This document shows, one piece after another, positions 1,125 to 32,207 of a stretch of 41,372 bases of DNA. Every line of letters begins with the position of its first letter. Within the stretch, counting starts at the first letter, position 1. Source of the stretch: Rhodovibrio sp. GTDB taxonomy: Bacteria; Pseudomonadota; Alphaproteobacteria; Kiloniellales; Rhodovibrionaceae. The position numbers were made by a program, and so were the translations under genes. The DNA lies in NCBI GenBank assembly GCA_007127165.1, contig SKZV01000011.1, forward strand, positions 1 to 41,372. Reading direction: 5' to 3'. The notes beneath the pieces are model-generated. The model did no database searches. It was not told the DNA's origin and saw nothing but the letters and a program-made list of their open reading frames with translations.

Positions 1125-1627
1125 TGTTTTCCAATGAATTACGGAATCGGGCTCAGTCGGTGCTGGAAGCCTACCGTCGGCGGGGCTGGATGCTGGCGAC
1201 AGCCGAGAGTTGCACCGGCGGACTGGTCGCCGCATGCCTGACGGAGATCTCCGGCTCTTCCGATGTCGTGGAGCGTGGTTTCGTCACCTATACGAACGCG
1301 GCGAAGTCCGGCCTTCTCGGCGTGCCCCAGGCGACGCTGCACCGCTATGGAGCGGTCAGCGAGCGGGTCGCGGAACTGATGGCGGCAGGCGCGCTTGCCC
1401 GGACGCCCACCCAGGTTGCGGTGGCGATCACCGGTGTTGCCGGGCCCGGCGGCGGCAGTGCCGAAAAGCCGGTCGGCATGGTGTGTTTCGGCCTTGCCAG
1501 CATCGCCGCCTCGCCCCGCCATGTAATACACCGGTTTGGCGGCGATCGCGCCGCAGTGCGGGAGGCAAGTGTGGCGGTGGCGCTGGACCTCCTGCTGGCG
1601 GCGGCCCAGGAGGATCAATCGCAATGA
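1124..1627 (+). CDS. cinA: CinA-family nicotinamide-nucleotide amidohydrolase (PncC type)
   Basis: The 167-residue protein consists only of the C-terminal CinA domain (PncC), without the N-terminal molybdopterin-binding-like domain of full-length CinA. It carries ATAESCTGG near residues 24-32 and ITGVAGPGGGSAEKPVG, both typical of the family. The family deamidates nicotinamide mononucleotide to nicotinate mononucleotide in NAD salvage. I chose the ATG at 1124 because it overlaps the pgpA stop and begins right at the conserved domain; an upstream start at 1001 would read through pgpA in another frame. The stop overlaps the next gene as ATGA. Stand-alone PncC forms are common in alphaproteobacteria; the activity here is inferred. 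Confidence 0.9.
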   Translation: MFSNELRNRAQSVLEAYRRRGWMLATAESCTGGLVAACLTEISGSSDVVERGFVTYTNAAKSGLLGVPQATLHRYGAVSERVAELMAAGALARTPTQVAVAITGVAGPGGGSAEKPVGMVCFGLASIAASPRHVIHRFGGDRAAVREASVAVALDLLLAAAQEDQSQ

Positions 1628-2373
1628 GCGGACCCCACGGGCCGCTCGACAGTCCATATCGGCTGCCGCTCAACGTGGCGGATATGTTGCTCCTGGTGAT
1701 CTTGGCACTCGGCTCGGCCCGCGTTTTGCTGCCGGTCGTTGCCGGAGCGCTTGGCCTCGGGAATGGCATCGAAGGGGTGCCGATCGAGAAGATCCTTATC
1801 CTTCTCGGCGTGCAGACAGGTCTACTGCTACTGGCGGTCTACCTTGTCGTGGTGCTTTGGCGAGGCGTTTCATGGCGCGATCTCGGCTTCGTTCCCTTGC
1901 CCGAAAAATGGGGTGCCAGAGCCGTCGCAATTGCCCTGCTCAGCTTCCCTCTGGTCGGCTTCATCATTTGGGTGCAGCAGCAAATTACGGGCCGGGAATT
2001 CGAGAACCCGCAGATGGAGTTGATTGCGCCGGCGGAGTTCTCGCTGAGCGCCTACCTCACCACGCTCATCGTGGTGGCGGTGATCGCACCGCTGGCCGAG
2101 GAGGTGCTGTTCCGTGGCGTCCTCTATCGCTGGCTTCGTGAGCGTATCGGAATTGGCTTTGCGCTGGTGCTGAGTTCCCTGGCGTTCTCAGTGGTCCACG
2201 GCGTGGTCGCGCTGATTCCGGCAATCGCCGTGCTCGGCCTTATCCTGGGCTGGGTTTACGAGCGCACGCAGTCGATCTGGACTCCAATCCTCGTCCACGC
2301 AATCTACAACGCCATCGTCACCACGATCCTTTACGCGGCGCTGGCACAGGATATGGCGCCGCCCGGCACGTAG
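1624..2373 (+). CDS. CPBP-family intramembrane glutamic endopeptidase (Abi/CaaX protease-like)
   Basis: The 249-residue polytopic membrane protein has about six or seven hydrophobic helices. It contains the three CPBP (Rce1-like) motifs: EEVLFRG (motif 1, catalytic glutamates), FSVVHG (motif 2) and HAIYN (motif 3). Members are membrane-embedded glutamate proteases or protein scaffolds, and in bacteria the substrate is usually unknown. The ATG overlaps the cinA stop (ATGA). The gene is last in the ispDF-pgpA-cinA run and converges with the RatA-like gene across a palindromic repeat. Nothing shows a bacteriocin-immunity role, the other known context for the family. Confidence 0.85.
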   Translation: MSGPHGPLDSPYRLPLNVADMLLLVILALGSARVLLPVVAGALGLGNGIEGVPIEKILILLGVQTGLLLLAVYLVVVLWRGVSWRDLGFVPLPEKWGARAVAIALLSFPLVGFIIWVQQQITGREFENPQMELIAPAEFSLSAYLTTLIVVAVIAPLAEEVLFRGVLYRWLRERIGIGFALVLSSLAFSVVHGVVALIPAIAVLGLILGWVYERTQSIWTPILVHAIYNAIVTTILYAALAQDMAPPGT

Positions 2374-2406
2374 AGTGGAATGAGTTATCTCCGAATCGCC
2401 ATCCCG

Positions 2407-2475
2407 CTCTAGAGCTTTGTTTTCCGCGGCGATTCAGATCTCAAGCCGAAGTGGCTTGAGATCATCGCGCTCTAG
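2407..2475 (-). repeat. Palindromic dispersed repeat, copy 1, with terminator-like hairpin
   Basis: The element lies between convergent genes. A perfect 11-bp stem (2437-2447 with 2453-2463, core ATCTCAAGCC / GGCTTGAGAT) closes on a 5-nt loop. CTCTAGAG at 2407-2414 and GCTCTAG at 2469-2475 bracket it. Its reverse complement aligns along its whole length with 32133-32207, with the same order of CTAGAG-like edge, stem, ATCGCC and CTCTAGAG. It may act as a bidirectional terminator. The repeat-family assignment is inferred from two copies only. Confidence 0.75.
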
Positions 2476-2488
2476 GGCGCACCGCCCC

Positions 2489-2956
2489 TCAGACCGAGCG
2501 CTGCGCAGCGGAGGAGCGATCGAGGGGGCCATAAAGCTCTGCCGCCCGCGTTTCGAACGCGCGCACCATGCGCTTCACCGCCTCGTTGAACAGCGGTTCT
2601 ATCAATCGCTGCAAAAGCCGCGTGCGGAACTCGAAATCGATAAAAAAATCGATCTTGCAGCCATTTTCGTGTTCGTGAAAGATCCAGTGGTTGTTGAGGT
2701 AGCGGAACGGTCCGTCGAGGTATTGAACGTCGATGCGGCGATTTGCATGGTCGAGCGTCACCTGACTGGTGAAACGCTCGCGGATCATCTTAAAGCCAAT
2801 CACGAGATCGGCGATGATCGTGTTGCCGCGCCGACGCCGGATACGGCAGGCAATACACCATGGCAAGAATTCGGGATACTTCTCCACGTCCGCGACCAGA
2901 TCGAACAATTGATCTGGACGGTGTGGGAGAATTCGCTGCTCAGCGTGTGTGGGCAT
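2489..2956 (-). CDS. RatA/COQ10-family START-domain protein
   Basis: The 155-residue protein is a single START/polyketide-cyclase-like domain. The opening (RILPHRPDQLFDLVADVEKY then PEFLPWC) is the standard COQ10/RatA N-terminus, followed by VIGFKMIRERFTSQV and the FFIDFEFRTRLLQ strand. Mitochondrial COQ10 binds ubiquinone. E. coli RatA was described as an inhibitor of ribosome subunit joining, which is why pipelines call this a toxin. No antitoxin gene is next to it. In alphaproteobacteria the gene sits after lipA, as here (43 bp downstream), in a central-metabolism operon, so a quinone-related role is more likely than a toxin. That functional preference is inference. Confidence 0.88.
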   Translation of the reverse strand: MPTHAEQRILPHRPDQLFDLVADVEKYPEFLPWCIACRIRRRRGNTIIADLVIGFKMIRERFTSQVTLDHANRRIDVQYLDGPFRYLNNHWIFHEHENGCKIDFFIDFEFRTRLLQRLIEPLFNEAVKRMVRAFETRAAELYGPLDRSSAAQRSV

Positions 2957-5436: not shown

Positions 5437-6819
5437 TTACAGCATCATCGTCAGCGGGTCCTCCAGGAGCTTCTTCAGCGCTCCCATAAACTCTGCGCCC
5501 ATCGCGCCGTCGGCCACGCGATGATCGAAAGTTCCGGTGACGGACATCATCGTCGCGACAGCAAGTGCGCCGTCCTTGACCACCGGACGTTGCTCGCTCT
5601 GTCCCACAGCAACAATGCAGCCTTGCGGCGGATTGATGATCGCGCCAAACTCCTTGATACCCATCATGCCCAGGTTCGACAGCGAGAAGGTGCCGCCCTG
5701 GTAGTCCTCCGGCTTCAGCTTGCCGTCGCGCGCTCGCTTGGCCAGAACCTTCATTTCCCTGCTGATCTGAGCCAAGCCCTTCGTATCGGCCTTTTTCACG
5801 ATTGGCGTAATCAGACCGCCCTCGATCGCGACCGCAACGGAGATATCGGCGTGATCGTACATCAACAGTGTGGTGCCGTTGTACGAGGCATTGACGCCCG
5901 GCACCTGCATGAGCGCCAAAGCGCAGGCTCGAACTATGAAATCGTTGACGGACAGTTTGTAGTCGGCACCGCTCTTCTCGGCACGCGCATTCAATTCTTT
6001 GCGGACCCGAAGAAGCTCGTCGATCTCAACATCCACCGTCAGCGGATAATCGGGGATGCTCTGCTTGGCCTCGACCATCCGCTTGGCGATCGTCCTGCGC
6101 ATGGACGAAAGAGGAACTTCCTCATACGCGAGGCCGTAGCTGTCCGCCAAGTCCTTGGCGCGAGGGGCTGCCGGCGCCTCAGCGGCGGGCGCAGCCGCAG
6201 CCGCGGGCGCAGCTTCTTTCTTGGCAGGCGCAGCTTCTGCGGGTGCCGAAACGCCCCGCTCGATAGCCTGCTCCACATCGGCGCGCACGATCCGGCTATT
6301 GGGACCGCTACCCTTGATCTGCGTCAGATCGATCCCGGCCTGCTTCGCCATTCGTCGTGCCAGCGGCGAAGCGAAGATCCGTTCGCCGCCGGAAGACTTC
6401 GGCGCAGGCGGTGCCGGTGGCGCATCCTTGAGCATCTCTTGCGTTCCCGGCGCTCCGCCTTTGGCCGGGGCTTCCGGAGCCTTCGAGGCCTTTTCACCGC
6501 TTGGCGCGCTGGCGGGAGTGTCTTCTGCCGGGGGGGGTGGCGCGGAGGTCGCTTGGCCCAAATCGCTTTCGCTCTCGCCTTCCTGGAGCAGGACTGCAAT
6601 CGGCTGGTTCACCGGCACGCTCTCCGTTCCTTCCGGAACGAGGATCTCGCCCAGATGGCCCTCGTCGACGGCTTCGACTTCCATCGTCGCCTTGTCGGTT
6701 TCGATCTCGGCGATCACGTCACCGGCGTTGACTTCATCGCCTTCCTTGACGTGCCACTTGGCCAGCGTCCCTTCCGTCATCGTCGGCGAAAGCGCCGGCA
6801 TCAGGATATTCACGGGCAT
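5437..6819 (-). CDS. pdhC: Pyruvate dehydrogenase E2, dihydrolipoyllysine acetyltransferase
   Basis: The 460-residue core subunit has three parts. A single lipoyl domain covers residues 1-80, with lipoyl-lysine K43 in ETDKATME. An Ala/Pro/Glu-rich linker leads to a peripheral-subunit-binding domain at about 147-185 ([14 protein letters not shown] ... [11 protein letters not shown]). After a second Ala-rich linker comes the acetyltransferase domain (about 230-460), ending with the catalytic HRVADG motif (H433, D437). It transfers the acetyl group to CoA and organises the complex. The single lipoyl domain is about 83% identical by eye to the one on PdhB over the first 87 residues (72 matches), pointing to a past domain copy. 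Confidence 0.97.
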
Positions 6820-6844: not shown

Positions 6845-8266
6845 TCAGGCGCGGTAGCACACCTGTTTGGCAGCCGCGACGACATCGTCGGACTGCGGCA
6901 CAGCCAGCTTTTCGAGATTGGCGGCGTAAGGCTGCGGAACATCCTTGGCGCAGACCCGCAAGACAGGCGCGTCCAGATAGTCGAAGGCGTGCTCCATACA
7001 CAGCGCGGCGATCTCCGAGCCGATCCCGGCAAATGGCCAGCCCTCTTCGCAAGAGACCAACCGGTTCGTCTTTTTCACCGAGGCGACGACGGTATCCACA
7101 TCGAAGGGCCGTAGCGAACGCAGGTCGATCACTTCCGCTTCGATCCCTTCTTCCTGGGACAGCCGCTCGGCAGCTTCCAGCGCCCGCTTCACCATCATCG
7201 AATGGGCTACGAGGGTCACGTCGGTCCCTTTGCGGCACACCTTCGCCTTGCCAATCGGCACCGTCCAGTCGTCGGTATCCGGAATTTCAAAGCTTTGGCC
7301 GTAAAGCAGTTCATTTTCCAGGAAGATCACTGGGTTCGGGTCGCGGATCGCGGACTTCAAAAGCCCTTTGTAATCGGCCCCGTCGTAAGGCGAAACGACC
7401 TTCAATCCCGGTACGTGGGCGTACCAACTGCCATACTCCTGGCTGTGCTGAGCCGCCACGCGCGATGCTGGACCGTTCGGGCCGCGAAACACGATGGGGC
7501 AGTTGATTTGCCCACCCGACATATAGAGCTTCTTGCCAGCGGAGTTGATGATCTGATCGATCGCCTGCATGGCGAAGTTGAAGGTCATGAACTCAACAAT
7601 TGGACGCAGGCCGAAAAATGCCGCACCGATGCCGACACCGGCAAAACCCTGTTCGGTGATCGGCGTATCGACCACGCGGCGGCGGCCGAACTCCTTCAAC
7701 ATGCCGACAGTGACCTTATAAGCGCCCTCGTAGTCGGCAACCTCTTCGCCCATGAGGTAGACGCGATCGTCATTGCGCATCTCCTCGGCCATTGCGTCGC
7801 GAAGCGAATCGCGCAAGGCCTCGGTTTTCCATGCGCCGGTCCACTCCGGCTCGGGCTGAGAGGAGTCGCCGAAAGACGTGCGCGGCTCCTCGGCGGCTGT
7901 CGCGGGGATTTTTACGCTGGTCGAGGCCTCGGCTCCCGAAGCGGCCGCCGCCTCGCCGTGTGCCGCGGCCGGTTCTGCGGCGGGCTCCTTCTCAGCGGCG
8001 GAGGTGAGATCGCTCTCGCTTTCCCCTTCGCCAAGCAGGAGCGCAATTGCTTTGTTCACCGGCACGTTTTCCGTACCCTCGGGCACCAGAATCTTGCCAA
8101 GCGTGCCTTCATCGACGGCCTCGACCTCCATGGTCGCCTTGTCCGTCTCGATTTCCGCGATAACATCGCCGGCGGCAACAGTGTCGCCTTCGTTCTTGTG
8201 CCACTTCGCGAGGTTTCCCTCGGTCATGGTCGGTGACAGCGCCGGCATCAATACTTCGATGGGCAT
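6845..8266 (-). CDS. pdhB: Pyruvate dehydrogenase E1 beta subunit with N-terminal lipoyl domain
   Basis: The 473-residue protein begins with a complete lipoyl domain (residues 1-85, lysine K43 in [11 protein letters not shown]). An Ala/Glu-rich linker (~90-140) follows, then the E1 beta transketolase-type domain ([45 protein letters not shown]) and the C-terminal transketolase domain. Together with PdhA it decarboxylates pyruvate using thiamine diphosphate. A lipoyl domain on E1 beta is known from alphaproteobacteria such as rhizobia and Zymomonas. The gene is 25 bp ahead of pdhC and 129 bp behind pdhA; that wider spacer contains two palindromes. Confidence 0.97.
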
Positions 8267-30072: not shown

Positions 30073-32136
30073 TTGAGTGCCATGGTCGAACCTTCGTCCC
30101 GCTGTTGGCGCGACAGCAGGCGCGTGGGAATTTGTGCGCGTGCGGGGCAGCGTTTCCTCGCCCTGGTTGCCATATTGGTGCTCGGATTTTCGGCGGCATG
30201 CAAGGCTGCGCCAGCACCACCGGAACAACCGGAACAAAGCCTTCTCGCCTCCGCCTTCTCAGCGATCGATGCCGAGGAGTTCGAGCGCGCGCACCGTATC
30301 GCCGAAGAGATGGAAGAACCCTTGGCTGCCCGAACCGTGCGCTGGTTCGCACTCACCGGGCAGCGGCGGGGCGGCGATTTCGTGAAGTACCTCCGATTTA
30401 TCGAGGAAAACCCGGACTGGCCCTGGCCACGGACGCTGCAATACCGCGCCGAGGGCGCCATGCCGTCGGAACTGCCTGCCGCCGCCGTACGGGCCTTCTT
30501 TGCCGAGCGGGAGCCGGTCAGTAGCTATGGCGCCGAACGATTGGCGGATGCGTTGCTGGCCGAGGAAGGGATGCGCGACACCGCCCGCGACCTGCTCCGC
30601 CGGACTTGGGTCGAAGGCGACTTTACGGTGAGCGACGAGCGGCAATTCCATGGACGCTACGGCCATCTTCTCGATGAAGGGTTGCACCGGGCGCGGCTGG
30701 AGCGCCTGCTCTGGGAAGGTCGGAACGCAAACGCCGAGCGGCAGATTCTCAGGGTGGACGCCGATTATCAGGCGCTGGCACGAGCCCGCCTGCGCCTTGC
30801 GGCGATGCAATCCGGCGTCGATGGGGCCATAAACAGTGTTCCTTCCGCACTGCGCGACGATCCGGGGCTGACGTTCGAGCGGGCGCGCTGGCGTCAGCGC
30901 AAGGGCCGCTATGAGGATGTCGTCGCAATGCTCGACCCGCCTAGCCCGGATGCGCCATACCCGGAGGCTTGGTGGCCGGTCCGGAACTGGACCGCCCGGC
31001 TCGCGTTGGATCGCGGCGACGTTTCCGTCGCCTATCGCGTGGCGGCGAATCATGGGCTCGAAGGCGGCGTGGGCTTTGCGCAAGGCGAATGGATGGCCGG
31101 ATGGGCTGCGCTTCGTTTCCTGCGCGAGCCGGAGCAGGCCTATCGCCATTTCGTGCGTCTTTTTGAAGGTGTCAGCACACCGGTAAGTCTCTCGCGCGGC
31201 GCCTACTGGGCGGGACGGGCGGCGGAAGAAATGGACGACGTGGAGGGCGCCGATATCTGGTATCGCAAGGCAGCGGCGCATGGAACGACCTTCTACGGCC
31301 AGTTGGCAATTGCAAGACTTGACGAGGAGGCGAGCCCCTTCATCGGCGGCATCGTCCAGCCAGGGCCAGAAGAGCGCTCCCAGTTTGACTCCGATGAAAT
31401 CGTGCAGGCCGTGCGGCTCTTGATCGAGCGCGGCTTCTCCGAGCGTATCGACAACCTGATCGTCCACCTGGCGGCTGGGGAGCAAAGCCCCGCCAGCGCA
31501 TACCTCATCGCGGAGCTTGCCGAGAAGGCCGACCGCCAGGACCTCGCCGTACGCATGGCGCGGCAGTTCCGGCGCTCCGGCATCATTTTGGCGGAGCATC
31601 TTTATCCGGTTGTATCGTTGCCTGGGGAGAACTTTATGGTCACGGACGAGGCACGGGCGGCATTGGTGCTGGCCATCGTCCGGCAAGAAAGCAGCTTCGA
31701 CACGAGCGCCGTGAGCCGGGCGGGTGCACGCGGCCTGATGCAGCTCATGCCCCCCACCGCGAGGGCGGTGGCCGGTCAACTCGACCTGCCGTTCAGCTCG
31801 CAGCGGCTTCTAAGCGATCCCGAGTACAATATCCGCCTGGGAGAAACCTATCTGCAAAACTTGGTGGAGCGATTCGACGGCTCGCTGCTCCTTGCCGTGG
31901 CGGCCTATAACGCCGGTCCCGCGCGCGTGTCGAGCTGGCTGAACCGTTACGGCGATCCGAGGACGGACTTCGTCGACGCCATCGACTGGATCGAGAACTT
32001 GCCCTTCTCTGAAACCCGAAACTATATTCAGCGCGTGTTCGAGGGAATGATGGTGTACCGGCAGCGAATGGTATCGGCGCAGTTCGCGTCGGGACTGGAC
32101 CCCGAGGCCATGTTCCACTCGGTGCCGCTGAATTAG
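30073..32136 (+). CDS. slt: Soluble lytic murein transglycosylase
   Basis: The protein has 687 residues. A hydrophobic export signal lies at about 27-45 (FLALVAILVLGFSAAC), where the Cys could be a weak lipobox. A long alpha-helical superhelix (about 60-510) follows, then the catalytic SLT domain: E539 in IVRQESSFDTSAVSRAGARG, LMQLMPPTA, LGETYLQNL and AVAAYNAGPARV. It cleaves peptidoglycan glycan strands with formation of 1,6-anhydro ends. A TTG at 30073 has GGGAG nine bases upstream; an ATG at 30082 has only a weak site, so the start is uncertain by three codons. The stop codon is inside the second copy of the dispersed repeat. Confidence 0.93.
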   Translation: MSAMVEPSSRCWRDSRRVGICARAGQRFLALVAILVLGFSAACKAAPAPPEQPEQSLLASAFSAIDAEEFERAHRIAEEMEEPLAARTVRWFALTGQRRGGDFVKYLRFIEENPDWPWPRTLQYRAEGAMPSELPAAAVRAFFAEREPVSSYGAERLADALLAEEGMRDTARDLLRRTWVEGDFTVSDERQFHGRYGHLLDEGLHRARLERLLWEGRNANAERQILRVDADYQALARARLRLAAMQSGVDGAINSVPSALRDDPGLTFERARWRQRKGRYEDVVAMLDPPSPDAPYPEAWWPVRNWTARLALDRGDVSVAYRVAANHGLEGGVGFAQGEWMAGWAALRFLREPEQAYRHFVRLFEGVSTPVSLSRGAYWAGRAAEEMDDVEGADIWYRKAAAHGTTFYGQLAIARLDEEASPFIGGIVQPGPEERSQFDSDEIVQAVRLLIERGFSERIDNLIVHLAAGEQSPASAYLIAELAEKADRQDLAVRMARQFRRSGIILAEHLYPVVSLPGENFMVTDEARAALVLAIVRQESSFDTSAVSRAGARGLMQLMPPTARAVAGQLDLPFSSQRLLSDPEYNIRLGETYLQNLVERFDGSLLLAVAAYNAGPARVSSWLNRYGDPRTDFVDAIDWIENLPFSETRNYIQRVFEGMMVYRQRMVSAQFASGLDPEAMFHSVPLN

Positions 32137-32207
32137 AGTGCGATGATTTTGAGCCTGCTTGGCTTAAAATCTAAATCGCCTAGCCAAGTGAGAGTCAGGC
32201 TCTAGAG
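32133..32207 (+). repeat. Palindromic dispersed repeat, copy 2, at the end of slt
   Basis: The copy starts on the slt stop codon. Its stem GATTTTGAGCC (32145-32155) and GGCTTAAAATC (32161-32171) has a 5-nt loop and one G-T mismatch that still pairs in RNA. ATCGCC and CTCTAGAG (32200-32207) follow as in copy 1, which is in the opposite orientation at 2407-2475. The changes between copies are mostly compensatory or wobble within the stem. It could terminate slt transcription. Confidence 0.75.

Follow-up and report, generated by a model that had tools for sequence, protein, structure and literature searches.

Two short palindromic repeats lie in opposite orientation at gene ends in the window, a stretch of 41,372 nucleotides from a Rhodovibrio genome. 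What kind of element are they, and why does the edge of each fall on a stop codon? An initial annotation likened them to REP- or RIME-type palindromes and suggested a terminator-like repeat spread through the genome. Our analysis places them in a genome-wide family of short hairpins that are probably mobile and insert at TA, often exactly inside a stop codon that stays functional.

Two hairpin elements in the window

The two copies are related, as had been noticed from the letters: the reverse complement of 2409-2476 and the sequence 32132-32199 agree in 48 of 71 alignment columns (score 20.5; best of 2000 shuffles, 6.5). A search with a covariance model had been suggested. Our model, R1, was trained on 30 copies of the source genome assembly (G000), including copy 1 and excluding copy 2, and scores 91.8 bits at 2409-2476 on the minus strand and 54.0 bits at 32132-32199 on the plus strand (E = 1.5e-15 for copy 2 within the window). 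The stems were described correctly, with GATCTCAAGCC-ACTTC-GGCTTGAGATC in one copy and GATTTTGAGCC-TGCTT-GGCTTAAAATC in the other, and the substitutions in them are real: at two positions C-G gives way to T-A, with both partners altered, and at a third A-T becomes G-T. RNA folding of the A strand gives z-scores of -4.3 and -3.0 for the two copies. No Rfam 15 family matches the window at its gathering score.

The extent of copy 1 needed correction. The repeat noted at 2407-2475 is only a portion of a 104-bp unit extending to 2371, as found by a match of 95% to a 105-nt consensus over 2371-2474. Copy 1 is a double hairpin made of modules A and B, and copy 2 is hairpin A alone, again running from TA to TA (Table 1). 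Module A has a stem of 5 + 11 bp with a TGA bulge that holds a GAATC site, a 5-nt loop, an A-rich linker and the end CTCTA. The inserted sequence of copy 1 is read as the 100 bp between two TAs, 2373-2472. The slt copy does lie on the stop codon of its gene, as reported, and a stop-codon edge is not peculiar to it; copy 1 has one as well, at its B edge. The C-terminus of the protein that ends there differs by 0 and +2 amino acids from those of two relatives of the same family. The gene that converges on copy 1 from the right stops at a TGA that lies away from the element edge. In genome G016 (locus L252), the orthologue of the Rce1-like gene of the window ends in TAGAGCATGATATTCTAG, which may be the remnant of a further element at the corresponding stop.

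Table 1. Coordinates of the elements, their edges and the neighboring genes in the window
Feature	Positions	Strand	Basis and remarks
Copy 1, full A+B element, TA to TA	2371..2474	-	A+B consensus match 95%; edges read
Copy 1, module A	2410..2474	-	R1, 91.8 bits
Copy 1, module B (second palindrome)	2371..2411	-	A+B consensus; TA 2410-2411 common with module A
TAG stop of ORF 1624-2373	2371..2373	+	ORF reading; read as host TA + element G
Rce1-like gene (PF02517)	1624..2373	+	Pfam; ends on copy 1 (B edge)
Polyketide cyclase/lipid transport domain gene (PF03364)	2489..2908	-	Pfam; convergent, beyond module A of copy 1
Copy 2, module A alone, TA to TA	32134..32204	+	R1, 54.0 bits; right edge CTCTAG 32200-32205
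TAG stop of ORF 30124-32136	32134..32136	+	ORF reading; left edge of copy 2
SLT transglycosylase domain gene (PF01464)	30124..32136	+	Pfam; end at copy 2

A repeat family in the source genome and its relatives

The proposal of a palindromic repeat at gene ends, present throughout the genome in this lineage, is supported, and the window copies are far from the only two. R1 finds 57 matches at E<=1e-3 in G000; because two of them are the second hairpin of a copy already counted, we report at least 55 copies of hairpin A. This number is a lower bound: scoring covered 150 of the 1839 candidates from a first look, in an assembly (3.37 Mb in 353 contigs) that is 92% complete. The 105-nt consensus has 24 matches in the same genome, 20 of which cover at least 100 nt. 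Modules also occur in other arrangements. A solo module B runs from TA to TA without module A at L307:2702-2742 (contig C37), and other palindromes bounded by CTAGAGC are chained to module A. In six such chains (L084, L098, L099, L096, L107 and L102) the outer TAG is the stop codon of a gene. One chained module starts TAGAGCATTTTC, followed by an A-rich linker and a symmetric palindrome.

Variation in the abundance of the family was observed across the order. With 84 candidates scored per genome, 10 of 61 genomes had matches at E<=1e-4: G003 (70), G000 itself (53), G038 (32), G017 (19), G031 (9), G010 (7), G044 (3), G028 (2), G025 (1) and G035 (1). Two genomes of the same family as G000, G001 and G002, had no R1 match at this threshold. 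The 24 loci from relatives share a common plan, namely a lower stem, a TGA bulge, an upper stem and, in most, a second palindrome, and they differ in the sequence of the upper stem. In G003, R1 matches the second hairpin too, on the opposite strand. One element in G003 (L341:1586-2479, contig C2) is located at the stop codon of a 298-codon ORF of transposase type with an integrase core (rve).

The view that the fold is kept proved half right. Within G000, pairing in 30 copies is barely above that of shuffles (93.7% compared to 93.4%), with 98 of 500 shuffles reaching as many paired cells and 22 of 500 as high a covariation score; with little or no excess of covariation in these copies, we rejected the idea that selection keeps the structure within this genome. 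Between genomes the stems do change on both sides: among 103 matches from relatives, two-sided changes occur in 13 of 16 pairs and in 385 cells, whereas shuffles give 133.5 and slid controls no more than 45. Because the matches were aligned by fitting them to the model and come from a few families with many copies each, they indicate that each family is palindromic, and not how many changes were independent.

GANTC sites are a further common feature, and the sites GAATC and GATTC recur across copies. They are present in the A region of 34 of the 55 G000 copies (31 at one position) and in the B half of 21 of 55, relative to a background of 2.95 per kb. The site lies at the bulge in 22 of 24 loci from relatives (24 of 26 loci were looked at), although R1 itself selects for this A-side region. 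GANTC is the motif of CcrM, according to a passage in PMC2229807.

Element edges at TA and within stop codons

Elements are found in the pattern Y-TA-GAGC...GCTC-TA-R. The base before the TA of the A edge in G000 (n=44) is C in 28, T in 13, A in 2 and G in 1, and the base after the TA of the B edge (n=24) is G in 18, A in 4, C in 1 and T in 1. At A edges that form stop codons, a Y precedes the TA in 19 of 20, compared to 54 of 139 other TAA or TAG stops.

We examined how the edges relate to stop codons, as had been proposed, and found that an edge often falls exactly within the stop of a gene. Coding frames, defined as at least 40 open codons with a hexamer score of at least 6 (a threshold set after a first look at the data), reach the A edge in 24 of the 55 G000 copies, and 20 of these are in frame with it, compared to 2 and 2 in the other frames (P = 6.6e-7 against one third). 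The in-frame stops are TAG in 19 and TAA in 1; one of the 20 copies (C5:1720) may be an antisense shadow. By the calls of our gene finder alone, a home-made hexamer scorer that missed atpD by calling the opposite strand, the stop is exactly at the A edge in 19 of 55 copies. The B edge, located in 30 copies, has frames of 6 in, 1 and 1 (6 of 8). Similar proportions were obtained for 69 elements from relatives, where 24 of 27 coding frames that reach the A edge are in frame with the edge codon (1 and 2 otherwise); two of the 24 have since mutated and are stops no more, reading TGG (L146) and TCG (L360). Their B edges, placed by a simple motif and doubtful in at least one case (L148), were located in 42 and are in frame in 12 of 15 (one ambiguous; 2 and 1 otherwise). 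Across the fetched G000 sequence, 41 YTAGAGC edges are in frame and 9 out (n=160), compared to 123 in and 154 out for other YTAG sites (n=933).

These coincidences could have arisen by truncation of genes through random insertion. We rejected this, given the scarcity of out-of-frame cases and the native end that most conserved genes keep. The C-terminus of the protein that we take to be AtpD is at the same residue in all 24 relatives that matched well, out of 27 searched, and that of a response regulator is at the same residue in 4 of 4. The ends agree within 2 amino acids in 6 of 6 for a presumed NuoB-like protein and in 4 of 4 for a CBS protein. Among the named matches listed for the NuoB-like protein, the best are an Alphaproteobacteria MAG (85%) and a Rhodospirillaceae MAG (84%), with beta- and gamma-proteobacteria at up to 83%, so that an alpha-proteobacterial source is likely on this evidence. 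A pyrophosphatase with an element at its stop is 3-4 amino acids longer than its counterparts in 5 of 5 relatives, and the ends of what is presumably a Dxs-like protein scatter from -3 to +8 amino acids over 7 loci. Slt C-termini are too variable for judging the native end. AtpD, NuoB and Dxs are names we have assumed; the others are from Pfam where given. The conserved genes show that the stop at the element edge is the native one, with the pyrophosphatase and the Dxs-like gene speaking against it. On the atpD stop, G000, G003 (L196) and G017 (L195) carry different elements, those of G003 and G017 being two-palindrome forms.

Sites that lack the element were found by comparing eight G003 genes whose stop carries an element to congeners G010 and G017, so that all empty sites come from one genus, different from that of the window, which G000 alone represents among the searched genomes. 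For four of the eight (genes 5, 8, 10 and 13), G010 has a bare TAG at the same codon, and the DNA downstream is similar to what follows the element in G003. The clearest case is gene 10, with TAG-GGCGAA in G010 and TAG[element]TAG-GGCGAA in G003. Gene 2 ends in TAA in G010 and TAG in G017. For genes 7 and 12, the congeners shown have TGA, not TAR. Gene 1 has a different kind of element in G010, which gives no bare-TAG comparison beside a conserved flank, and gene 5 has a different element in G017.

We consider it probable that the best explanation as a whole is a MITE-like, non-autonomous element of ~65-105 bp with one or two hairpins, mobilized by a DDE transposase acting in trans. It would insert at TA in a YTAR context and duplicate the TA, giving Y-TA-[GAGC...GCTC]-TA-R. 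The outer bases vary as host-like Y and R, and this argues that the element proper is GAGC...GCTC and the duplication TA. The edges and the four empty sites agree on a TA duplication, from which we infer its exact length; a duplication of TAG or CTAG may apply at individual copies. Where the TA lies within a TAG or TAA stop, the first G of the element would rebuild TAG. The frame counts, the constant AtpD ends and the bare TAG of a congener together argue that the element enters a native stop and that its first G restores TAG. With TAG rebuilt, the gene would lose nothing, and this would be why copies are tolerated even between genes of an operon. Each insertion would also recreate YTAR at its edges, so that further modules could stack into chains. 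The ends shared by the modules are GAGC, extended to GAGCGSGATG in A+B copies, and the enzyme that acts on the hairpin ends would most likely be TA-specific, of the IS630/Tc1-mariner kind. A transposase with matching ends was not found among isolated element edges in G000 (100 of 101 places listed, 20 regions fetched), which proved to be solo, broken or unrelated sites.

Other explanations and known repeat classes

One interpretation of hairpins at gene ends is that they are RNA elements, selected as terminators or mRNA stabilizers after stop codons, so that the overlap with the stop reflects function and not insertion. Many copies directly follow a stop, the folds of the window copies are stable, stems change on both sides between genomes, and E. 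coli REPs within 15 nt of stops are described in passages of PMC5082802 and PMC12306157 as affecting translation. The terminator-like character proposed for the window copies was not borne out: in the 12 nt that follow hairpin A, 0 of 55 G000 copies have 6 or more T on the A strand and 1 of 55 on the other, and one copy is located between the ATP synthase alpha/beta-family gene (atpD) and the ATP synthase delta/epsilon-chain gene (Pfam). On these two grounds we rejected an intrinsic terminator. The near absence of excess pairing within G000 and the model-fitted alignment of a few families also weaken the case from structure, and the finding that a congener has a bare TAG for some of these genes shows gain or loss of the whole unit. 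We therefore regard selection as an RNA element as unlikely. A transcribed hairpin just after a stop may still tune mRNA decay or termination, although nothing here shows it.

Given insertion at TA, the excess at stop codons could have arisen without any targeting of stops, through purging of copies that land within genes and the frequent use of YTAR as stops in a GC-rich genome. This reading could equally well prove right or wrong. Outside the elements, stops account for 15 of 92 non-coding CTAG sites and 27 of 221 TTAG or CTAA sites in the fetched G000 sequence, for 4 of 16 CTAG sites in G003 and for 0 of 4 in G038, and intergenic sites that are not stops are used by the elements too. These background shares suggest that target preference and loss of harmful copies explain part of the excess. 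The observed share in G000 is higher, at 20 of 55 A edges and 6 of 30 B edges, to which the outer TAG of the six chains is added. In addition, the atpD stop carries different elements in three genomes, and two G003 stops are occupied by other elements in its congeners, one in G010 and one in G017. Stop codons might be a real target for a broad class of two-hairpin elements of diverse sequence in one bacterial order, with insertion steered to TAG and TAA at gene ends beyond a TA preference and purifying selection; we hold this view only tentatively and think it rather doubtful. If it is correct, separate element families would have reached one stop independently, atpD in three genomes being an example, with the first base of the element rebuilding it, and the stop codon would be a built-in safe harbor.

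A different enzyme is implied if the elements are REPs or BIMEs of the RAYT kind, with YTAG in the place of GTAG and a single-strand HUH transposase inserting after the tetranucleotide. Inverted hairpin pairs with a bulge, chains and a tag at the hairpin foot fit this reading, and Y1 matches were obtained in four relatives that bear elements (G044, G010, G017 and G003). As described in passages of PMC3733652, GTAG REPs and BIMEs are likewise short hairpins with a foot tag and inverted pairs downstream of genes, and their GTAG termini often give flanking ORFs a TAG stop; the stop-codon coincidence therefore has a precedent in another family. Unlike them, the elements here have YTAG, with G before the TA in 1 of 44, and both ends are alike, with TA at both edges and a variable outer base; the empty sites have TAG once. 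G031, G038, G028, G025 and G035 have elements and no Y1 match. In G000 (92% complete), no RAYT flanked by repeats was found, and the one Y1_Tnp found (L133, 3.1 kb, contig C324) adjoins an IS605 OrfB/TnpB gene; this locus, an IS605-type pair, lacks an element, and its single GCTCTA hexamer lies within an ORF. The initial comparison to REPs with a RAYT is thus not borne out, and we judge this origin improbable compared to the TA insertion of a MITE-like element.

Palindromic repeats of alpha-proteobacteria include Bru-RS of Brucella and RIME of Rhizobium. CIR repeats are reportedly Caulobacter CcrM-associated intergenic repeats of alpha-proteobacteria, with CIR1-CIR4 said to come from Chen and Shapiro in 2003. 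Among known classes CIR repeats fit best by description: in passages of PMC2229807, they are ~110 bp, with two arms and a linker, GANTC and TA termini, intergenic and of several kinds per genome. The A+B form here has the same two-arm plan at 104 bp, with GANTC and TA termini, and the A-only copies are shorter. The GANTC of CIRs is placed by that source at the terminal loop of one arm, compared to the A-stem bulge and the B half here, and its descriptions of CIRs, in those passages, are without stop-codon insertion or empty sites.

Other classes share individual features. RUP, an IS630-associated MITE of Streptococcus pneumoniae, is described in parts of PMC2229807 and PMC3049150 as a 107-bp non-autonomous element with TA-containing targets and ~110 copies. 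Unlike the elements here, RUP is AT-rich and has been assigned a putative IS630 partner that shares its terminal repeats, for which we found no equivalent; the element described here is a double hairpin whose base composition is mixed. Br-REP1 of Bradyrhizobium (passages of PMC5082802) consists of palindromes in overlapping 3' UTRs of convergent genes, three of them side by side, and its abundance also differs strongly between related species; its sequence is different, and TA edges and stop-codon sites are absent from its description in those passages. Bru-RS, as described in part of PMC2267715, likewise lie between the genes of an alpha-proteobacterium and measure 103-105 bp. In titles, abstract openings and passages of open-licence papers, we met no description of empty stop-codon sites for elements of this type.

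In passages of PMC2229807, a review, the mechanism of CIR mobility is said to need more information. If the family described here belongs to the CIR class, its edges, shared stops and empty sites would provide that mechanism, namely TA-targeted insertion that keeps the stop codon, as well as a test for the missing transposase. Such a mechanism, if true, would show how a mobile element can multiply within operons at little cost. It also cautions that hairpins directly after stop codons need not be terminators.

The window holds another repeat, a 258-nt direct repeat (6562-6819 and 8009-8266, 74% identity). It corresponds to a lipoyl domain at the N-termini of two neighboring proteins, a 2-oxoacid dehydrogenase acyltransferase and a transketolase-type subunit (Pfam).
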